Shown: positions 12,244-34,509 of the stretch, piece after piece
How the letters are laid out: every line of letters starts with the position of its first letter
Numbering within the stretch: position 1 is the first letter of the stretch
Origin: Spirochaetaceae bacterium
GTDB taxonomy: Bacteria > Spirochaetota > Spirochaetia > DSM-27196 > SKKC01
Length of the DNA: 34,509 nt
NCBI GenBank assembly: GCA_007694005.1
Contig: RECN01000019.1
Location: 1 to 34,509 of the forward strand
Reading direction: 5' to 3'
Position numbers and translations under genes: made by a program
The notes under the pieces: model-generated
Database searches by the model: none
The model's input: the letters and a program-made list of their open reading frames with translations, nothing else
What the model was told of the DNA's origin: nothing

Positions 12244-13443
12244 ATGCAGCCTATGGGCAATGTATCAGACACGCACGTTGTTGTTATTGGTGGAGGCGGG
12301 ACCGGCGCAGCCATCCTGTACGACCTCGTACAACGCGGATTCAAGGCGACATTATTCGAACGCGGTGAGCTGACCTGCGGCTCAACCGGTCGACACCACG
12401 GCCTCCTGCATTCGGGAGCCCGATACGTGGTCAAAGACCGCGAGGTCGGCCGGGAGTGCATGAACGAAGTGCGCATTCTCAAGCGCATAGCTCCCGAGGC
12501 GATCGAGGCCAACCGGGGGATATTCGTCGCCTTCACCGAGGAAGAAGAAGCCTACCGGGAGACCTTTGAGGAAGCCTGTGCAGAGGCTGATATACCCACA
12601 CAGTGGCTGGATGCCGATGAACTGCTCGCTATGGAACCGCGGCTGAATCCGACCCTGCGCGGCGGTGTTATGGTGCCGGATGGAACTCTGGATGCGTATC
12701 GGCTTCCGATGCATTTTTTTGCCGGTGCGCGGCAGCTCGGTGCGGTGATCCGGAACTTCGCCCGCGTCGAATCGTTCGTATTTGAGGGACGGAGGATCGC
12801 CGGGGTTACCGTTCGCGATCTTCGAACCGGAACAGACGAGACCGTTGCGTGTGACCTTGTAATCAACGCCACCGGTGGCTGGGCCGGGAAACTCGCCGCC
12901 ATGGCCGACATCAACCTGCCGATTACACCCGCACCCGGAACCATGCTTGCGCATCAGGGTCGTCTGGTGAACAACATAATAGAGCGCCTCAGACCTGCCA
13001 GCGACGGCGATATTCTGGTGCCGCAGCGGGGCCTGTCCATAATCGGGTCGACGCAGTGGCAGAGTGATGACCCGGATGACTGCAGGGTGCCCGATGCCGA
13101 CGTAGAGCTTCTCACTAACGCTGCAATCGACATGGTGCCCGACTTCAAGGACACGAAGTATCACAAGGCCTGGGCCGCAGTCCGGCCGCTCGCCGGAGCA
13201 TCCTCGACCGAAGAGGAAGGCCGCGAGCTCAGTCGCGATTTCGAGGTCCGGAATCACGGCACTCTCGACGGTGTTGAAGGCATGTTGAGCCTGACCGGCG
13301 GGAAGGCGACGACGCTCAGGATCATGGGCGAAAAGACGGTCGACGTTGTCTGTGAGATGTTCGATGTCGAGGCGTCCTGTCGCACGGCCGACGAGCCGCT
13401 TCCGAATTATCGTCAATTTTTCCGCCATGGAGTCCTCGTATGA
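12244..13443 (+). CDS. GlpA-like FAD-dependent glycerol-3-phosphate dehydrogenase, short form
   Basis: A 399-aa flavoprotein of the anaerobic glycerol-3-phosphate dehydrogenase family, which oxidises glycerol-3-phosphate to dihydroxyacetone phosphate. The FAD motif VVVIGGGGTGAAILYDL is at the N-terminus, followed by the GlpA hallmark STGRHHGLLHSGARY. Later blocks VPDGTLDAYRL, DGDILVPQRG, VRPLAG and LTGGKATTLRIMGE also fit GlpA closely. It stops where E. coli GlpA continues into its C-terminal BFD-like iron-sulfur domain, so that domain is absent. Its last codons overlap the next gene by 4 bases (ATGA), coupling it to an SdhB-like protein instead of GlpB and GlpC. ATG 12253 is an alternative start. 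Substrate could be another 2-hydroxy or polyol phosphate compound. Confidence 0.85.
   Translation: MQPMGNVSDTHVVVIGGGGTGAAILYDLVQRGFKATLFERGELTCGSTGRHHGLLHSGARYVVKDREVGRECMNEVRILKRIAPEAIEANRGIFVAFTEEEEAYRETFEEACAEADIPTQWLDADELLAMEPRLNPTLRGGVMVPDGTLDAYRLPMHFFAGARQLGAVIRNFARVESFVFEGRRIAGVTVRDLRTGTDETVACDLVINATGGWAGKLAAMADINLPITPAPGTMLAHQGRLVNNIIERLRPASDGDILVPQRGLSIIGSTQWQSDDPDDCRVPDADVELLTNAAIDMVPDFKDTKYHKAWAAVRPLAGASSTEEEGRELSRDFEVRNHGTLDGVEGMLSLTGGKATTLRIMGEKTVDVVCEMFDVEASCRTADEPLPNYRQFFRHGVLV
12784..12797 (+). repeat. Repeat half-copy GAGGGACGGAGGAT inside the GlpA-like gene
   Basis: Fourteen bases identical to the repeat consensus, read here as Glu-Gly-Arg-Arg-Ile. It is the only copy far from the 27.6-34 kb cluster. 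The protein aligns to E. coli GlpA here without an insertion. Confidence 0.6.
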
Positions 13444-25938: not shown

Positions 25939-27771
25939 ATGCCACGTACAAAAATCAGATTGCATACGCTCGGACGGATCGCCCGTATGGCGTTCCGTCA
26001 CCGGACACGTATGTCGGTTACCATCGCATGCGCCGTCGTCGCAGGCGCCTTTCAACTCTGGATTCCACAGCTGCTCGGATCCGCGGTCGACAGCTCCTTT
26101 ACGTTCTTCCAGCGAGGTGCGTCTATTGACGAAGCACAGTCGGTTCTGCTCCTTTCCGCGGCGCTTCTCTTTGGAGCAAGTGTGGCACACGGTGTGTTCA
26201 CGATGCTTCACAACTACCACGCCGAGGCGGTCGGACAGTTTGTCGGCTACGAACTGCGTCTGGCCATCTACGAGAAGGTGCAGCGGCTGAGTTTCAGCTA
26301 CCACGACGCGATGCACAGTGGAGATCTCATTACCCGGGGCATGCTGGACATCGAAGGCGTGCGGCTGTTCGTGAACACCGGCATCGTGCGCCTCATCGTA
26401 CTCTCGGTGCTCGTCGGCGCGGGTTCCTGGCTCATGATCAGCACCGAGCCTGTGCTCGGGCTCGTCGCACTGAGCTTCGTGCCTGTGGTCGGATGGCGCG
26501 CGATCGTCATGAGACTGCGGCTGCGTAAAAGCTGGCACGGACTGCAGCGGCGACTGTCGGTTCTGACCCGCATAATGGAAGAGAATCTCGGTGGCATTCG
26601 GGTCGTGCGCTCGTTCGGGTCACAGGACTACGAAATGTCGAAGTTCGACCGGACGTCGAATCGCGCGTTCAACCTTACCCGACATCGAATCGGAGTCAGG
26701 GTTCGTAACGCCACCTTCATGAGTTTCGTGTACTTCATCTCCATGGGTCTGGTTCTGACGGTCGGTGGTGCCATGGTTCTCGATGGCAGCATAACGGTCG
26801 GGCGCCTGACCGAGTTCCTCGCGTATCTGACGATACTGCAGATGCCGGTGCGGCAGATGGGGCTGCTTGTGAACTCCATCGCCCGGGCAACGACATCCGG
26901 CGAGCGGCTTTTCGACGTGCTTGACCGTGAGCCGGAGATCCGCGACAAACCCGGAGCACCCGCGTTGAAGCTGAAGAAAGGGGTTCTGACTTTCGATTCG
27001 GTCGGCTTTGCCTACGAAGGGCAGGATGAGAAGGAACACACCCTCGCCGACATTTCCTTCGAGATAGCGCCGGGGCAGACTCTTGGCCTCGTCGGCCCGC
27101 CGGGTGCCGGAAAATCCACCATCGCTCACCTGATACCCCGGTTCTATGACGTGAGCTCGGGAAGCATCAGAATTGATGGACAGGACATTCGCGATGTGAC
27201 GCTTGATTCGCTCAGACGGGCGGTGAGCGTCATACAGCAGGACAGCTTCATTTTTACCTCACGACTTGAGAACAATCTTGCCTACGGAAATCCGTGGGTG
27301 GACAGGGACCACATAGAATGGGCTTCTGAGACTGCACAGCTGCACAGCTACATCGAGCAGCTGCCCAAGGGGTACCGGACGCTCGTCGGCGAACGGGGTG
27401 TGTCGCTCTCAGGGGGGCAGAAGCAGCGCCTGGCCATAGCCCGCATGCTCGTGCTCCAGTCCCCGATCATGGTCTTTGATGACTCCACCGCCGCGATAGA
27501 CGCGGCGACCGAACAGCGAATCAGGCAGGGACTCGCCTCTATCGCACATAAACACGCGACGGTCGTTATCGCACACCGCCTGAGCTCGCTCATGCACGCC
27601 GACGAGATCCTTTTCATAGACGGCGGCCGCATCATCGAACGCGGCACACACCAGAGTCTGCTGAGGGACGGAGGACGCTACGCAGCACTCTATGCCCTGC
27701 AGACCAACCCGGATGAGGACGAAGCGATCGACGCGCAGGTCTTTTCGAGGGACGGAGGATTGAATGTCTAA
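25939..27771 (+). CDS. ABC exporter half-transporter, degenerate-site subunit
   Basis: A 610-aa type IV ABC exporter with an N-terminal six-helix domain and a C-terminal ATPase. Walker A is GPPGAGKST, the signature LSGGQKQRLAIAR, Walker B IMVFDDSTAAID and the H-loop AHRLSS. Asp replaces the catalytic Glu after Walker B, as in the BmrC/YheI or TM287-type partner of heterodimeric exporters. So it likely pairs with the next gene, whose site is intact. ATG 25939 is chosen because GGAG lies 9 bases before it; ATG 25864 and 25921 lie upstream without support. The C-terminus encodes a copy of the GAGGGACGGAGGATTG repeat and overlaps the next gene by 8 bases. Exported substrate is unknown. Confidence 0.92.
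   Translation: MPRTKIRLHTLGRIARMAFRHRTRMSVTIACAVVAGAFQLWIPQLLGSAVDSSFTFFQRGASIDEAQSVLLLSAALLFGASVAHGVFTMLHNYHAEAVGQFVGYELRLAIYEKVQRLSFSYHDAMHSGDLITRGMLDIEGVRLFVNTGIVRLIVLSVLVGAGSWLMISTEPVLGLVALSFVPVVGWRAIVMRLRLRKSWHGLQRRLSVLTRIMEENLGGIRVVRSFGSQDYEMSKFDRTSNRAFNLTRHRIGVRVRNATFMSFVYFISMGLVLTVGGAMVLDGSITVGRLTEFLAYLTILQMPVRQMGLLVNSIARATTSGERLFDVLDREPEIRDKPGAPALKLKKGVLTFDSVGFAYEGQDEKEHTLADISFEIAPGQTLGLVGPPGAGKSTIAHLIPRFYDVSSGSIRIDGQDIRDVTLDSLRRAVSVIQQDSFIFTSRLENNLAYGNPWVDRDHIEWASETAQLHSYIEQLPKGYRTLVGERGVSLSGGQKQRLAIARMLVLQSPIMVFDDSTAAIDAATEQRIRQGLASIAHKHATVVIAHRLSSLMHADEILFIDGGRIIERGTHQSLLRDGGRYAALYALQTNPDEDEAIDAQVFSRDGGLNV
27663..27675 (+). repeat. Repeat half-copy GAGGGACGGAGGA in the first ABC gene
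   Basis: Thirteen bases match the consensus. Read as part of Leu-Arg-Asp-Gly-Gly-Arg. This peptide is common in ABC exporters, so the match could partly reflect protein sequence. Confidence 0.5.
27747..27762 (+). repeat. Full repeat copy at the end of the first ABC gene, supplying the next gene's ribosome binding site
   Basis: All 16 consensus bases are present. They encode Arg-Asp-Gly-Gly-Leu near the C-terminus of the first ABC protein. The internal GGAGG (27754-27758) is 5 bases before ATG 27764 of the second ABC gene and is its only Shine-Dalgarno. Confidence 0.8.
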
Positions 27772-29671
27772 CCCATATCAGCCTGAACAGGATAAATTTT
27801 ACGGAGAACACGAGGTCGACCACCCGCCTTTGGCGGTTGTGGGGTCGCAGACGAACCGCGATGAGAGGATTTTCGGCGAATTCTACGACGGACACGTGAT
27901 CCGGCGATTCATGGGCTTTGTCGCACCTTATCGCCGGCAGCTCGTGTGGTCGGTTGTAGCCGTTCTTGCCTTCACGCTGACACAGCTGTCGGTTCCGCTG
28001 GTTATTCGTTACACGGTCGATGAGGCACTCGTTGACACCGGGGCCGGTACGACTGCTCTGGCTATCGTCGGTCTCGTATTCCTGGGGCTCATCAGCCTGA
28101 ACTATCTGGCGAACTTCATGCAGGAATGGCTGTCGAACAACGTCGCGCAGCACGTGCTGTTTGACCTCAGGCGGGCGATGTTCGCACATCTGCAGAAAAT
28201 TTCGCTCTCGTTCATGGATAAAACCGAGGTCGGCAGGATGATGTCGAGGCTGCAGGGAGATGTGAACGCGCTGCAGAACTTCCTTGAGTCCTCGATTTTC
28301 GTAATCGGGGATCTTGTTCTGCTCTTTGGCATCGTCTTTGTCCTTTTGACCATGAATCTGCGACTGGGTCTTATGACGGTCGGAATCGTGCCGCTTCTGT
28401 TTCTGGTGCGCATTATCTGGCTGCCTCGTGCGCGCAAGGCCTTTATTCGAGCCCGCGAGACGCAGTCATCGGTCAACGGAGCACTTGCCGAAGGGATTAA
28501 CGGGGTTCGCACCATTCAGGAGATGGCCCGCGAGGATGTGAACTTCATGCTCTTTCGCGACAAAGCGCGCGATAACCTCGCCGCACACCTTACCGCCTCG
28601 AAATATTCGCAGGTCATGGTGCCGATAGTGGAGACGCTGACCGGCATCGCTATGGCCGTAGTCGTCTTTTTCGGAGGGACGGAGGTTCTGTCGGGAACGC
28701 TCGAGCTTGGTGTAATGGTCGCCTTTCTCTTCTACATTCAGCGTTTTTTCGCTCCGATACGCTCGGTAACCATGCAGTACAGCATCATGCAGCGGGCCAT
28801 GGCTGCCGGACAGCGCATTTTCGAGGTCATGGACGTACCAATTGACGTTGATGACAGGGACGGAGCTCTGGATCTCACGGAAATCGACGGCTCCATCGAG
28901 TTTGAGCACATGACGTTCGGGTATGAGCCCGATAGACCCATCCTGAACGATATCTCGTTTCGCGTGAACTCCGGCGAAACCGTCGCGTTGGTCGGTCCTA
29001 CCGGTAGCGGAAAGACCAGCCTGACCGCGATTGCCCACCGCTTCTATGATGTGTGGGAGGGATCGGTGAAAATCGGGGGGCACGATGTGCGTGATCTGAC
29101 CCAGGCGACCCTCGGCCGGAACATCGCCATGGTACTGCAGGATCCTTTTCTGTTTACTGGAACGATACTCGAGAATCTGCGGTATCACAAACACGACGCT
29201 TCATTTGAACAGGTCAGGCAGGCGACCGAGGCAGTTGGTGCCCACGAGTTTATTGCCCGCCTTCCCGACGGGTATTACACGAAGGTCGAACAGGGCGGTG
29301 GTAACCTTTCAGTCGGGCAGCGTCAGCTCATAAGCTTCGCGCGCGCCTTAGTGGCGGACGCCCCTATTCTGGTTCTCGACGAGGCGACGGCGAACATCGA
29401 CAGTTATACCGAGCGGGTCATACAGAAAGCGCTCTCGGTGCTCCTTGAGAACCGCACCGGTATGGTGATCGCGCACCGCCTCAGCACTATACGCGGTGCT
29501 GACCGGATCGTCGTGCTTCAGGACGGCAGAATCGTTGAAACCGGCTCCCACGATGAGCTCATCGAGAAGCGGGGACTGTATGCCCGGCTGTACTCGATGA
29601 ACTATGCCTCGTTTGATGACATACCCGAAGATCTGGTGCAGGCGGCGCTTGACTCGTCCCAGCGGACGTGA
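27764..29671 (+). CDS. ABC exporter half-transporter, catalytic-site subunit
   Basis: A 635-aa partner of the preceding half-transporter. A 60-residue cytoplasmic N-terminal extension precedes six membrane helices and a C-terminal ATPase: Walker A GPTGSGKTS, signature LSVGQRQLISFARAL, Walker B ILVLDEATANID with catalytic Glu, H-loop AHRLST. The signature reads LSVGQ, not LSGGQ, which fits the asymmetric pair because this signature would serve the degenerate site. The start overlaps the previous gene by 8 bases, and its Shine-Dalgarno is within the 16-bp repeat. Together they form a heterodimeric exporter of lipids, drugs or peptides; the substrate cannot be inferred. Its stop is 15 bases before the inverted repeat pair. 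Confidence 0.94.
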   Translation: MSNPYQPEQDKFYGEHEVDHPPLAVVGSQTNRDERIFGEFYDGHVIRRFMGFVAPYRRQLVWSVVAVLAFTLTQLSVPLVIRYTVDEALVDTGAGTTALAIVGLVFLGLISLNYLANFMQEWLSNNVAQHVLFDLRRAMFAHLQKISLSFMDKTEVGRMMSRLQGDVNALQNFLESSIFVIGDLVLLFGIVFVLLTMNLRLGLMTVGIVPLLFLVRIIWLPRARKAFIRARETQSSVNGALAEGINGVRTIQEMAREDVNFMLFRDKARDNLAAHLTASKYSQVMVPIVETLTGIAMAVVVFFGGTEVLSGTLELGVMVAFLFYIQRFFAPIRSVTMQYSIMQRAMAAGQRIFEVMDVPIDVDDRDGALDLTEIDGSIEFEHMTFGYEPDRPILNDISFRVNSGETVALVGPTGSGKTSLTAIAHRFYDVWEGSVKIGGHDVRDLTQATLGRNIAMVLQDPFLFTGTILENLRYHKHDASFEQVRQATEAVGAHEFIARLPDGYYTKVEQGGGNLSVGQRQLISFARALVADAPILVLDEATANIDSYTERVIQKALSVLLENRTGMVIAHRLSTIRGADRIVVLQDGRIVETGSHDELIEKRGLYARLYSMNYASFDDIPEDLVQAALDSSQRT

Positions 29672-29686: not shown

Positions 29687-29734
29687 GAGGGACGGAGGAT
29701 TGATATTTGGACAAAAACCAATCCTCCGTCCCTC
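29687..29734. repeat. Inverted pair of 16-bp repeats (REPIN-like hairpin), likely bidirectional terminator
   Basis: GAGGGACGGAGGATTG (29687-29702) is followed after 16 bases by its exact reverse complement (29719-29734). The 16-bp perfect stem sits between the second ABC gene (stop 29671) and convergent xylB (stop 29743), the place for a bidirectional terminator; no T-run follows. The arrangement of two REP half-elements in opposite directions is what is called a REPIN in gamma-proteobacteria. Confidence 0.85.
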
Positions 29735-29742
29735 GGTGAACC

Positions 29743-31380
29743 TTACTTTGACAGGTGATCCGACTCGAGTTTTGCGTATCGCGCAATGATTTTATCGAAT
29801 AACTCCACATTCTCAGGCGAAGGATGGCACTCACTGCCAGGATCCGACTTTACGAAGCGCTCCGAGACTTCTTCGTAACCGGCACCAAGCGCGTAGCGTG
29901 CAGCACTCATAGCGGCTCCGTAGGGAGCGGCGAACTCGGCGTTCGTGATGGTGTAAGTAATCGCTCCGAAGGCGTCAGCGAGTGCCTGCCGGATGAAGCG
30001 GTTTGATGCGCCGCCTCCGACTACACAGAGACGCGTTACATCCGACAGATGCCGTGAGTGCAATCTGAGTGACGCAACCTGCGAGATGTGCAACGCACGG
30101 ACGTTGGCTTGTGCATCACTCTCCGCGAAACCGTCCCGAACGATGCCTGCCTTTGCGACCGGGACACTTTCATCTGACAAATAAGGAAGCATGAGCGGTT
30201 CCTCCTCGGGCACCTGTATCGAGCCGCCGGCGAGATCTGCGTATCGCTCCCAGTCGCCGCCGGCATACGTGTCACAGAACTGCCGGTGAAGCTTGCCACC
30301 GTTGGTTATGACCGCCAGGGCCATCGCAAGGCCCGGTCTATACCCGAATATGTTGTAGGATGCGCCGTTCTCCGGGTGTACTTCGTCCATAGGACCGCAG
30401 ACGGTGTAGCTCGAGCCGAGACTGACGAGTGCTCCGTCCCCGCAGCCAAGGAGAGTCGCCGGATTATCCCCCGTCCCCGCGAGCACCGTGGCATCCGGTG
30501 CAAGGCCGTACTTTTCGACAAAGTAGCTACTCACCGGGCCAATTGGCCTGTCGTAGGCGACCATTCGGCCCAGCTGACCACCGAGCAGGTCCTGATACTG
30601 TTCCGCGAGAGGGACGGAGGATGGTGCCTGCAATCCGTTTTCACCGATATCGGCTGCAATCTGCTCTGATAGAGCCTTGATCGCCCGCTCAGAGAACGCA
30701 GGCTGATCGATGTCTATAGAGTTGAGATTTGTCCCCCAGCCGTCTCCGGTATCGACCGGTGCGACAACACCGGCGAGCGCTGAAGTAACGAAAGCGCTCA
30801 AAAGCATAATGTGCGAGGTCTTCGCGTACTGTTCGGGCGATTCTTTTGCCCATTTGAGTATTTGTGCCGCAGGGAAACGCAGCTCAGCCCGGTTTCCTGT
30901 GGTCGCCTGTATTCCTCCGTCCCCAGCGAAACGGTTAGTCAGATCCTGAGTTTCGGATTCGGTAGTTCTGTCTTCCCAGATTGGACTGTGCTTTCGGGTA
31001 AGGCACGGCGAAAGCGCACTGGCGAGGCTCGATGAGGGGTCGATCGAGGAAAGACGCCTCGCGAGTGTGTCCGCCGCGTAGACGGTGGCGTGTTGCTGGG
31101 CGTCGCATTTAATCGATGCAACACGGCTTAGCTCAATGTCATGCCTGACCATTGAAGAGAATATCTCATCGAGTGCATCGAGGAACATCAACGTTGGGCT
31201 TTCCCGGCGTTGGGTGTCTGGACTCTTGAGAACACCGCCGACTGTCTCGTAGGCGGGGAAGGTCTGGTCGTACGCGATGGAAGCCGAAGCAATAACCCTG
31301 GCTGTTTTTATCTCGAGTGCAATCCACTTCGCCGACTGTGTTGAAAGCTCGATACCAAGCGCAATAGTGTTATCCGACAT
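29743..31380 (-). CDS. xylB: FGGY-family carbohydrate kinase, probable xylulokinase
   Basis: A 545-aa sugar kinase in the cytoplasm, probably phosphorylating D-xylulose. The N-terminus IALGIELSTQSAKWIALE is the FGGY phosphate-binding start, with further blocks AGTGDNPATLLGCG, VSLGSSYTVCG and the adenosine-binding VVGGGASNRFIRQALADAFG. It is slightly longer than the usual 480-520 aa. ATG 31380 is chosen because AAGGAG stands 6 bases upstream; the in-frame ATG 31395 lies further up. It overlaps the end of xylR by 11 bases and is the last gene of the xylA-xylR-xylB operon. Two copies of the 16-bp repeat lie within the gene. Another pentulose or hexulose substrate is possible, but xylA upstream favours xylulose. 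Confidence 0.88.
   Translation of the reverse strand: MSDNTIALGIELSTQSAKWIALEIKTARVIASASIAYDQTFPAYETVGGVLKSPDTQRRESPTLMFLDALDEIFSSMVRHDIELSRVASIKCDAQQHATVYAADTLARRLSSIDPSSSLASALSPCLTRKHSPIWEDRTTESETQDLTNRFAGDGGIQATTGNRAELRFPAAQILKWAKESPEQYAKTSHIMLLSAFVTSALAGVVAPVDTGDGWGTNLNSIDIDQPAFSERAIKALSEQIAADIGENGLQAPSSVPLAEQYQDLLGGQLGRMVAYDRPIGPVSSYFVEKYGLAPDATVLAGTGDNPATLLGCGDGALVSLGSSYTVCGPMDEVHPENGASYNIFGYRPGLAMALAVITNGGKLHRQFCDTYAGGDWERYADLAGGSIQVPEEEPLMLPYLSDESVPVAKAGIVRDGFAESDAQANVRALHISQVASLRLHSRHLSDVTRLCVVGGGASNRFIRQALADAFGAITYTITNAEFAAPYGAAMSAARYALGAGYEEVSERFVKSDPGSECHPSPENVELFDKIIARYAKLESDHLSK
30609..30622 (+). repeat. Repeat half-copy GAGGGACGGAGGAT in xylB
   Basis: Fourteen matching bases, antisense to xylB. 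On the coding strand it reads Pro-Ser-Ser-Val-Pro-Leu, a frame different from the ABC copies. Confidence 0.75.
30913..30923 (-). repeat. Repeat core GGGACGGAGGA in xylB
   Basis: Eleven-base core in the opposite orientation to the 30609 copy, reading Gly-Asp-Gly-Gly on the xylB coding strand. Shorter match, hence lower confidence. Confidence 0.5.
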
Positions 31381-32578
31381 GTGAATCTCCTTCATTCTTT
31401 GTTGATGTCATCCGATTCTCGTTTATGTTCGACATATCAGGCCGTTTAAGCCCCAGACCGGGGAGAAGGCCCGAGAACGTCATAAGTCCAGCTCCAAGCG
31501 CCGATGCTATGTCGGGATGTTTTGATACAGAAACCTGTATACCCTGTGTAAGAAACGATACTTCGGCAAGCGCGCGTTGCAGGGGTTGAATCAGCCGGTC
31601 GCCAAGGTTTGCTATACTACCCGATATGACTACGAGGTCGGGATTGATACATGCCGCGATGTTTTCGATCCCGATTGCAAGACTCTCTATGTATTGCGCC
31701 CATATGCCTGATACCGACCCATCGCCGTCTTCTATGTGGTCCTTCAGACGGGCGATAGCGTCGTCCCCAAGGTCAGCGATGAGGGCCCGTTCCGACACAT
31801 ACTGTTCCCAGCAACCGGTCCTTCCACAGTTGCACGGCCTTACGCCTGCTCGGATGGCCATGTGTCCGAACTCACCAGCCCTCCAGCTTCGACCCCGCAC
31901 CACCTGTCCTGCGAGCAATATACCTGCTCCAACACCTTCTCTGATCGAAATCAGCACCATCGACGTTGAGGGAGGGACGGAGGATGTCCAGTATTCGCCG
32001 ATCGCAGCAGCATTCGCCTCATTATCGACAAACAACGGCAGCGACAGCTTCTGCGCGAGGCCGCCAAACGAGTAGTTTTTGAGAAAGAGATTCGGAGCGT
32101 TTACGAGCAGCCTGTTCTCGCAGTCGACAATACCCGGGACGGCGATGCCCGCGCCGTGAATGACAAGTTTTCGCCTCCACTTCTGGTGCAATCCGTTAAT
32201 GGCCTTCGCGATCATCGCTTCCGCATATCCTCCGTCCCTGACGAGGGACGCGTCAATATCGGTGCGGACACTGTCCCAGATTTCTCCGTTGACCCCGCAG
32301 CAGACACTCAGAATGTGGTTTGGGTGCAACTCAACACCTATCGCAGCGAGGGACGGAGGATTGATCTGGTATTCGTCAGCGGGGCGCCCTCCACTCGATG
32401 GTCGCTGACCCGCTAATTCGAGCAGTCCAGCTTCCATGAGAGCATCGATATGCGAGGCGGCTGCAGGCAGACTCTGTCGAATCAGGCGTGCCACTTCCTG
32501 TCTGGTGAGATGGGCCCCGCGCAGAAAACTGCGCAGGACCTTGATCCGGGCACCCTGAAACGAGTCCCATGGTCTCAT
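31370..32578 (-). CDS. xylR: ROK-family transcriptional repressor (XylR-like)
   Basis: A 402-aa repressor with an N-terminal winged helix-turn-helix (LTRQEVARLIRQSLPAAASH) and a C-terminal ROK sugar-binding domain. ROK hallmarks are GIAVPGIVD, VDNEANAAAIGE and the zinc motif GHMAIRAGVRPCNCGRTGCWEQ, quoted in part, with His and three Cys. Such proteins bind promoter palindromes and release them on xylose. The gene starts 1 base after the xylA stop and overlaps xylB by 11 bases, so it is coexpressed with its likely targets. A perfect palindrome upstream of xylA is the best operator candidate. Three copies of the 16-bp repeat lie within the gene. The regulator name is inferred from context. Confidence 0.87.
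   Translation of the reverse strand: MRPWDSFQGARIKVLRSFLRGAHLTRQEVARLIRQSLPAAASHIDALMEAGLLELAGQRPSSGGRPADEYQINPPSLAAIGVELHPNHILSVCCGVNGEIWDSVRTDIDASLVRDGGYAEAMIAKAINGLHQKWRRKLVIHGAGIAVPGIVDCENRLLVNAPNLFLKNYSFGGLAQKLSLPLFVDNEANAAAIGEYWTSSVPPSTSMVLISIREGVGAGILLAGQVVRGRSWRAGEFGHMAIRAGVRPCNCGRTGCWEQYVSERALIADLGDDAIARLKDHIEDGDGSVSGIWAQYIESLAIGIENIAACINPDLVVISGSIANLGDRLIQPLQRALAEVSFLTQGIQVSVSKHPDIASALGAGLMTFSGLLPGLGLKRPDMSNINENRMTSTKNEGDSHVG
31972..31985 (+). repeat. Repeat half-copy GAGGGACGGAGGAT in xylR
   Basis: Fourteen matching bases. On the coding strand it reads Ser-Ser-Val-Pro-Pro, in a loop between VDNEANAAAIGEYW and VLISI of the ROK domain. Confidence 0.75.
32227..32239 (-). repeat. Repeat half-copy AGGGACGGAGGAT in xylR
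   Basis: Thirteen matching bases in the reverse orientation, reading Arg-Asp-Gly-Gly-Tyr on the coding strand. A second short GAGGGAC follows at 32243-32249. Confidence 0.7.
32348..32363 (+). repeat. Full 16-bp repeat copy in xylR
   Basis: All 16 consensus bases, reading Asn-Pro-Pro-Ser-Leu on the coding strand, a third reading frame. Confidence 0.8.
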
Positions 32579-33996: not shown

Positions 33997-34024
33997 GTAG
34001 GAGAGGTAGGAGGAGGTAGGAGAG
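33997..34024 (+). repeat. Short purine-rich tandem repeat (GTAGGAGAG-type, three units)
   Basis: Units GTAGGAGAG, GTAGGAGGAG and GTAGGAGAG follow each other and run into a copy of the 16-bp repeat family. The surrounding 194-base gap (33894-34087) otherwise holds the xylA promoter/operator and the transposase leader. Confidence 0.6.
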
Positions 34025-34034
34025 GGACGGAGGA
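34022..34034 (+). repeat. Repeat half-copy GAGGGACGGAGGA upstream of the Y1 transposase
   Basis: Thirteen matching bases, 53 bases before the transposase start. REP-type repeats characteristically flank their RAYT gene. Confidence 0.75.
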
Positions 34035-34087: not shown

Positions 34088-34509
34088 ATGAGAACACCAC
34101 GACAAACCATGCCCGGCGGGCTGTATCACGTAGTAGCCCGAATCAATCGCCAGGAGTTCGCGCTGCGAAACCCCGAAATCAAAGAGATGCTGCTGCTCGT
34201 AATCGCCCGTTCCCGAAAAAAGTACCGTTACGAAATTATAAGCATCTGTGTGATGGACAATCACATACACCTGATGCTGCGAATGGCACAGGACGAATCA
34301 CTCTCGAAGACCATGCAGTGGATCCTCTCGGTATTTGCGATCAAATACAACAAAAGATTGGGGATCCGCGGTCACCTCTGGTACGATCGTTTTAAAAGCC
34401 GGCTCATAAAAACAGTTCAACACTTCACAGCCACGTATCAATACATTATCGATAATCCGGTTCGTGCCGGAATGTGCAGTCAGGCTGATGATTACCCTTA
34501 CGGACCACA
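34088..34509 (+). CDS. REP-associated tyrosine transposase (Y1, HUH family), partial
   Basis: An open frame of 140 codons runs off the window end. It begins MRTPRQTMPGGLYHVVARIN, and the GGLYHV-type start is typical of the TnpA-REP/RAYT branch of IS200/IS605 Y1 transposases. The HUH motif is in MDNHIHLMLRM (H-I-H), and the catalytic Tyr is in the block TYQYIIDNPVRAG, which is the RAYT hallmark. These enzymes cut and join single-stranded DNA at REP hairpins and are usually single-copy, non-mobile genes. AAGGG stands 3 bases before ATG 34088. The neighbouring 16-bp repeat family is its likely substrate. Whether the gene is intact beyond the edge cannot be seen. Confidence 0.85.
   Translation, partial: MRTPRQTMPGGLYHVVARINRQEFALRNPEIKEMLLLVIARSRKKYRYEIISICVMDNHIHLMLRMAQDESLSKTMQWILSVFAIKYNKRLGIRGHLWYDRFKSRLIKTVQHFTATYQYIIDNPVRAGMCSQADDYPYGP

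Follow-up and report, generated by a model that had tools for sequence, protein, structure and literature searches.

Known RAYT-associated repeats

The closest described arrangement is that of TIRYT/TIRtron elements, in which a RAYT-like Y1 transposase gene is flanked by inverted copies of a motif with the shared form GGGGWSAS, additional copies being present in some TIR families (Di Nocera et al. 2013, PMC3733652). Members of its subclass 2.1 (median 238 aa) bear a long C-terminal HTH extension. The TnpA-REP/RAYT systems of E. coli and Pseudomonas involve the same protein family (Y1_Tnp, 4er8) and pair one transposase with one cognate repeat family; their canonical REPs are palindromes with a GT[AG]G or CGTC tag and lie mostly between genes and mostly genome-wide (PMC3733652, PMC6006769). 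Intragenic REPs, and the RPE of Rickettsia, are found in coding sequence in varied frames and proteins, where they are insertions adding residues, frequently 20-30 and at most 82 (PMC3733652).

The window analysed here is one whole contig (34,509 bases) of the 3.9-Mb genome G000. Over its motif-rich stretch it is 89% identical to G001, a related spirochaete metagenome assembly.

The RAYT gene and its terminal motif

The transposase gene at 34088 has a Pfam Y1_Tnp domain (PF01797, E 4.9e-16), and the profile of its family matches the E. coli TnpA-REP structure 4er8 (E 1.7e-8). Its product contains NHIH, the HUH motif, and YIIDNP, the Y---NP signature, of which H, H, Y, N and P are invariant across 12 relatives. 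The G001 orthologue is 94% identical, while the other two of the three RAYT copies carried by G000 are 48-49% identical to the window RAYT. Domain, HUH motif and signature are those of the RAYT/TnpA-REP group (Y1 class 2), and the low copy number and divergence of the copies also agree with it.

In most relatives a direct motif lies 30-220 nt upstream, and many have inverted copies downstream, as in TIRtrons; in relatives from the same order, GGGGACGGAGG is found in direct orientation ~50-160 nt upstream. The downstream side of the window RAYT falls beyond the contig end. The RAYT-type Y1 transposase gene at 34088 has GGGACGGAGG(A) as its terminal motif; it encodes a RAYT whose motifs resemble terminal repeats, an arrangement nearest to that of TIRYT/TIRtron elements. 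The GGGGACAG variants fit GGGGWSAS fully and the window variant GGGGACGG fits it at 7 of 8 positions. The full-length relatives (174-183 aa) are without the long extension of subclass 2.1. Unlike canonical REPs, the motif (GGGACRGAGN) has neither the tag nor the palindrome, and many copies stand alone, without a paired arm.

Motif copies in the window

The window holds 14 occurrences of the GGGACGGAGG 10-mer, 11 of which fall within the last 7.4 kb, against none for the reversed motif. This last part includes five GGGACGGAGG(A) copies inside xylB and xylR, in different frames. When up to two mismatches were allowed, 19 matches were obtained in the window versus 3.4 +/- 1.8 in shuffled sequences, and none of 100 shuffles reached 19. 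Genome-wide, the 11-mer core is present in 35 copies, 12 on the window contig (reversed control, 1), and the 13-mer in 13 copies, nine on this contig. The Poisson P for the cluster is ~1e-17. Three other 13-mers, located off the contig, recur in G001. As listed in Table 1, repeats are embedded in coding sequence in several frames. Every peptide and coordinate named in the earlier note was verified, the copies encoding the different peptides PSSVPL, GDGG, SSVPP, RDGG, NPPSL and EGRRI. In the copy at the ABC gene junction, GGAGG stands 5 nt before the ATG at 27764.

Table 1. Motif copies and related features of the window
Feature	Position	Strand	Evidence or comparison
RAYT-type Y1 (HUH) transposase gene, truncated at contig end, source of cognate motif	34088..34509	+	Pfam Y1_Tnp; 4er8 profile match; G001 orthologue
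Copy in terminal-repeat position, 54 nt upstream of RAYT	34022..34034	+	Position and orientation shared with upstream motif of most related RAYTs
xylR copy, antisense, encodes NPPSL	32348..32360	+	Present in G001 and G002; different residues, equal length in other genera
xylR copy, RDGG, gap-free, complete in G000 only	32228..32239	-	GGGACGGAGCT in G001; unrelated bases in G002
xylR copy, antisense, SSVPP	31972..31984	+	10-mer core retained in G001 and G002; variable-length loop in other genera
xylB copy, GDGG, gap-free replacement	30913..30923	-	Matching columns AEGG (G002), AAGG (G012), SRGG (G004)
xylB copy, antisense, PSSVPL, genus-specific loop	30609..30621	+	No loop in G012, G004, G003
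Inverted motif pair, terminator-like hairpin, between convergent ABC and xylB genes	29687..29734	.	Arms 91% complementary; in G001, not in G002
Copy ending GGAGGT in second ABC gene (GTE), gap-free versus ABCB structures	28674..28686	+	10-mer retained in G001 and G002
Copy at ABC gene junction, overlapping Shine-Dalgarno site of second ABC gene	27747..27759	+	Retained in G001 and G002
Copy in first ABC gene (RDGG), gap-free versus PDB homologues	27663..27675	+	10-mer retained in G001 and G002
Copy in GlpA-like gene (EGRRI), 21 kb from RAYT, gap-free versus structure	12784..12796	+	Conserved in G001

Comparison of the window copies with relatives

Ten of 11 window copies are exact in G001 (P 1.7e-4) and five of 10 in G002, while all five of G002's own copies are exact in G000, at 73% identity (P 1.6e-6). 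Some copies differ between G000 and G002 by gain or loss. The earlier note had argued from family-typical protein lengths that the copies are not simple insertions, and this holds for most of them, which align without gaps to their homologues. The exceptions are the copy at 30609, located in a loop of ~8-12 residues that is found in the window genus only, and that at 31972, in a loop whose length varies. Simple insertion was thus rejected for most copies and retained for the 30609 loop and for tandem arrays. G002 keeps the PSSVPL peptide of the 30609 copy by synonymous codons without the DNA motif, which means that the motif was either lost in G002 or gained in the other two genomes.

Alignment of XylB and XylR orthologues, as the earlier note had proposed, revealed that the motif is absent in other genera and that the copies at 30913 and 32228 differ from G002 by gap-free changes. 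A common ABC peptide may account by coincidence for the copy at 27663, and the copy at 12784 may likewise be coincidental, a PDB homologue having similar residues (YEGDQI) at the aligned site.

Distribution of motif copies around RAYT genes

Eighty loci were gathered by RAYT homology, all from Spirochaetota. Of the 72 that were analysed, 63 showed a family motif no more than 220 nt upstream. They are not fully independent because they were chosen by RAYT similarity, and many of the genomes are fragmented assemblies, with RAYT loci often at contig ends. Each locus was scored for the 10-mer of its own RAYT. Across the 63 loci, own-motif density was 2.06/kb within 500 nt of the RAYT, 0.5-0.6/kb out to 4 kb, and then 0.46/kb at 4-6 kb, 0.32/kb at 6-8 kb and 0.18/kb at 8-10 kb, with no match to the reversed motif over ~850 kb. 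The complete Breznakiella homolactica genome has 16 copies, 11 of them in a 14.4-kb stretch around the RAYT, and the remaining five equal the number predicted by the control; in G120, 31 of 46 copies fall within 14.6 kb.

The copies are also cognate to the adjacent gene. The GGGACGGAGG loci hold 150 copies of their own motif and one of GGGACAGAGC, and the GGGACAGAGC loci 167 of their own and one of GGGACGGAGG. Motif variants track the RAYT phylogeny, with three changes at position 6 across 51 rows. This own-motif enrichment and the match of locus-specific variants to the adjacent RAYT bear out the RAYT involvement that had been suggested from the window. Whereas canonical REPs are mostly intergenic and genome-wide, the copies here are local, and a crude ORF caller assigns ~70% of those not in the RAYT to ORFs, with all six phases represented, versus 88% of bases; by the same caller, intergenic sequence holds 30% of copies in ~12% of bases. 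Host genes confirmed by Pfam include MurJ, PrmC, a DEAD-box helicase, a Mur ligase and an FGGY kinase. In the 63-locus count, no orientation bias relative to the RAYT was detected (96:106 upstream, 79:70 downstream).

Between L117, L125, L128 and L135, which are 66-72% identical, copies persist. G024 (97% complete) and G004 hold 72 and 63 GGGGACGGAGG copies, respectively, and no RAYT was detected in either, which means that copies may remain after, or be present in the absence of, a detected RAYT. In the shared downstream gene of eight Treponema loci no gain event was found; there the copies sit in the spacer.

Codon replacement, silent sites and relics

In murJ, copies have replaced existing codons. 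Four Treponema-type genomes with an adjoining RAYT have three to five exact copies in this gene, while the motif is missing from 30 orthologues of 56-73% protein identity. Coincidence would have been indicated, by the earlier note's own reasoning, if motif-less orthologues carried the same bases; the 30 carry other bases at these places. The columns concerned are mostly without local gaps. In one, a well-conserved Phe/Tyr is changed to Gln and the next residue to Ser, and in another a common Glu is changed to Gln; in two others Ala-Leu-Ser or a similar peptide is already common and mainly the codons are changed.

Silent sites inside the copies are conserved, which supports the proposal that the constraint acts on DNA and not on protein. 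Between the murJ genes of L141 and L143, four-fold silent sites were identical at 8 of 8 positions inside copies versus 72 of 216 outside, and across the four genomes at 5 of 7 versus 8 of 150; these numbers are small, and every pairwise test was concordant.

Mutated relics of the motif are nearly absent. The 63 loci contain 389 exact copies outside terminal repeats, and single-mismatch versions are in excess of the control mainly at the positions where the motif family itself varies (4, 6, 9 and 10), with no excess over background at positions 1, 2, 3, 5 and 7. Neutral insertions as old as murJ implies should have left relics outnumbering intact copies. One-mismatch sites in GGGACGGAGG loci numbered 10 against ~24 expected from non-cognate loci, and those in GGGACAGAGC loci 21 against ~10 expected.

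Origin and maintenance of the copies

On balance, we cautiously favour reading the repeats as the recognition or terminal motif of the adjacent RAYT, forming a cis array of sites that were placed by replacement and are kept by selection. The RAYT is a domesticated IS200-like HUH/Y1 transposase, and its motif forms a halo, inside and between genes, limited to about +/-10 kb of the RAYT gene. New copies would arise mostly by base replacement in existing sequence, the RAYT or a single-stranded motif fragment probably acting on DNA near the RAYT gene during replication, and selection at the DNA level would keep existing copies exact, since they would serve as a cis array of RAYT sites. The candidate sites may be bound by the RAYT protein, which would probably also write them. 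The superfamily carries out site-specific single-strand cleavage and ligation (PMC6006769), chemistry by which writing on single-stranded DNA close by is plausible; a short range would follow from a substrate consisting of DNA that is exposed close to the gene at the same fork. Against this reading stand the GGGGACGGAGG copies of G024 and G004 with no detected RAYT, the gains or losses between G000 and G002, the lineage-specific insertion that holds one copy, tandem expansions such as that in L146, and the crude ORF calling. The fuller proposal, that a domesticated HUH enzyme writes its motif into neighbouring genes by base replacement and that an array function keeps the sites exact even at the protein's expense, is put forward tentatively and may well prove wrong.

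Continual rewriting without selection is the alternative that comes nearest, and we consider it rather unlikely. The RAYT would template its motif onto similar nearby sequence, in a manner resembling gene conversion or oligonucleotide annealing, and repeated conversion would keep the copies identical. This would suit the locality and the gap-free replacement, with nonsynonymous changes even at well-conserved residues of murJ, as well as variant switches at orthologous positions that leave the remaining motif intact and the scarcity of one-mismatch sites in GGGACGGAGG loci. However, GGGACAGAGC loci are undepleted in one-mismatch chance sites, which means that rewriting is not general, and copies hold orthologous positions beyond silent saturation. 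Selection for a site array and repeated rewriting both fit the data, and the inconsistent depletion of one-mismatch sites leans slightly towards selection, which probably maintains the copies. Conventional REP/TIR mobile units that had inserted close to the RAYT, decaying neutrally and tolerated in loops, are already disfavoured and seem improbable: the motif pairs flanking RAYTs like terminal repeats, the genus-specific loop at 30609, the tandem copies in L146 murJ and the intergenic enrichment would all be expected of them, but not the gap-free alignment of most coding copies, the conserved silent sites or the virtual lack of relics.

Coincidence of codon usage with common peptides, such as EGRRI and RDGG in ABC and FAD enzymes, is plausible for the copies at 12784 and 27663, whose homologues have similar residues, and the recurrence of the off-contig 13-mers in G001 could also be taken in its favour. 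For the cluster as a whole pure coincidence was rejected by the murJ and cross-motif tests and appears very improbable, in view of the clustering probability, the motif-free murJ orthologues and the empty reversed-motif control. DNA-uptake and Chi sites are present in many copies, genome-wide, with one motif per species. A role of this kind had been proposed in the earlier note, and a short motif retained in coding sequence in all frames would be consistent with it. It is now hardly credible, since the copies are few and local, spanning ~10 kb around one gene (12 of the 35 core copies on one contig), their variants differ by locus and match the adjacent RAYT, and there is no orientation bias. 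In parS/ParB, a binding-site array lies near the gene of its binding protein, with short exact sites in genes that are kept at the DNA level. The candidate RAYT sites are alike in being short, exact, intragenic, close to the gene of the protein and maintained at the DNA level, but the protein family differs and there is no sequence relation.

The present copies differ from intragenic REPs and RPE in being mostly ~10-base replacements. No description of a local halo, base-replacing coding copies or silent-site conservation was found in PMC3733652, and a search by motif letters returned unrelated papers only. No such halo was found described in the literature searched, the coverage of which is incomplete, and the novelty is therefore provisional. 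RAYTs are widespread domesticated transposases of enigmatic role, and a compact conserved cis array gives defined candidate targets and a direct handle on their function. Being locus-specific, the array predicts each RAYT's motif from its locus. It also distinguishes a function from parasitism: decay at silent sites is expected of parasitic repeats, and halo copies do not show it.

Other features of individual loci

In G002, an unrelated inverted repeat occupies the place matching 29687-29734. At 32228-32250 the xylR copy extends to a perfect hairpin (CGTCCCT-GACG-AGGGACG) in G000 only, from which G001 departs by gap-free substitutions. The xylR and xylB orthologues L062 and L075 (G003 and G045) have long in-frame low-complexity insertions in variable loops, for example repeated SAAGTASSPGNGG, which are without the GGGACGGAGG motif. 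In G024 and G004 (L189-L198, L205-L208, L035-L037), some GGGGACGGAGG copies are clustered and some clusters end at contig breaks. At L117 and L135 at least two motif variants coexist at one locus, and variants have switched in place at positions orthologous to those of L125/L128, the rest of the motif being intact. The murJ of L146 (5990-7810) has a C-terminal tail with four tandem-like copies encoding IFxGQS variants; the murJ of L141, without these copies, is ~65 residues shorter.
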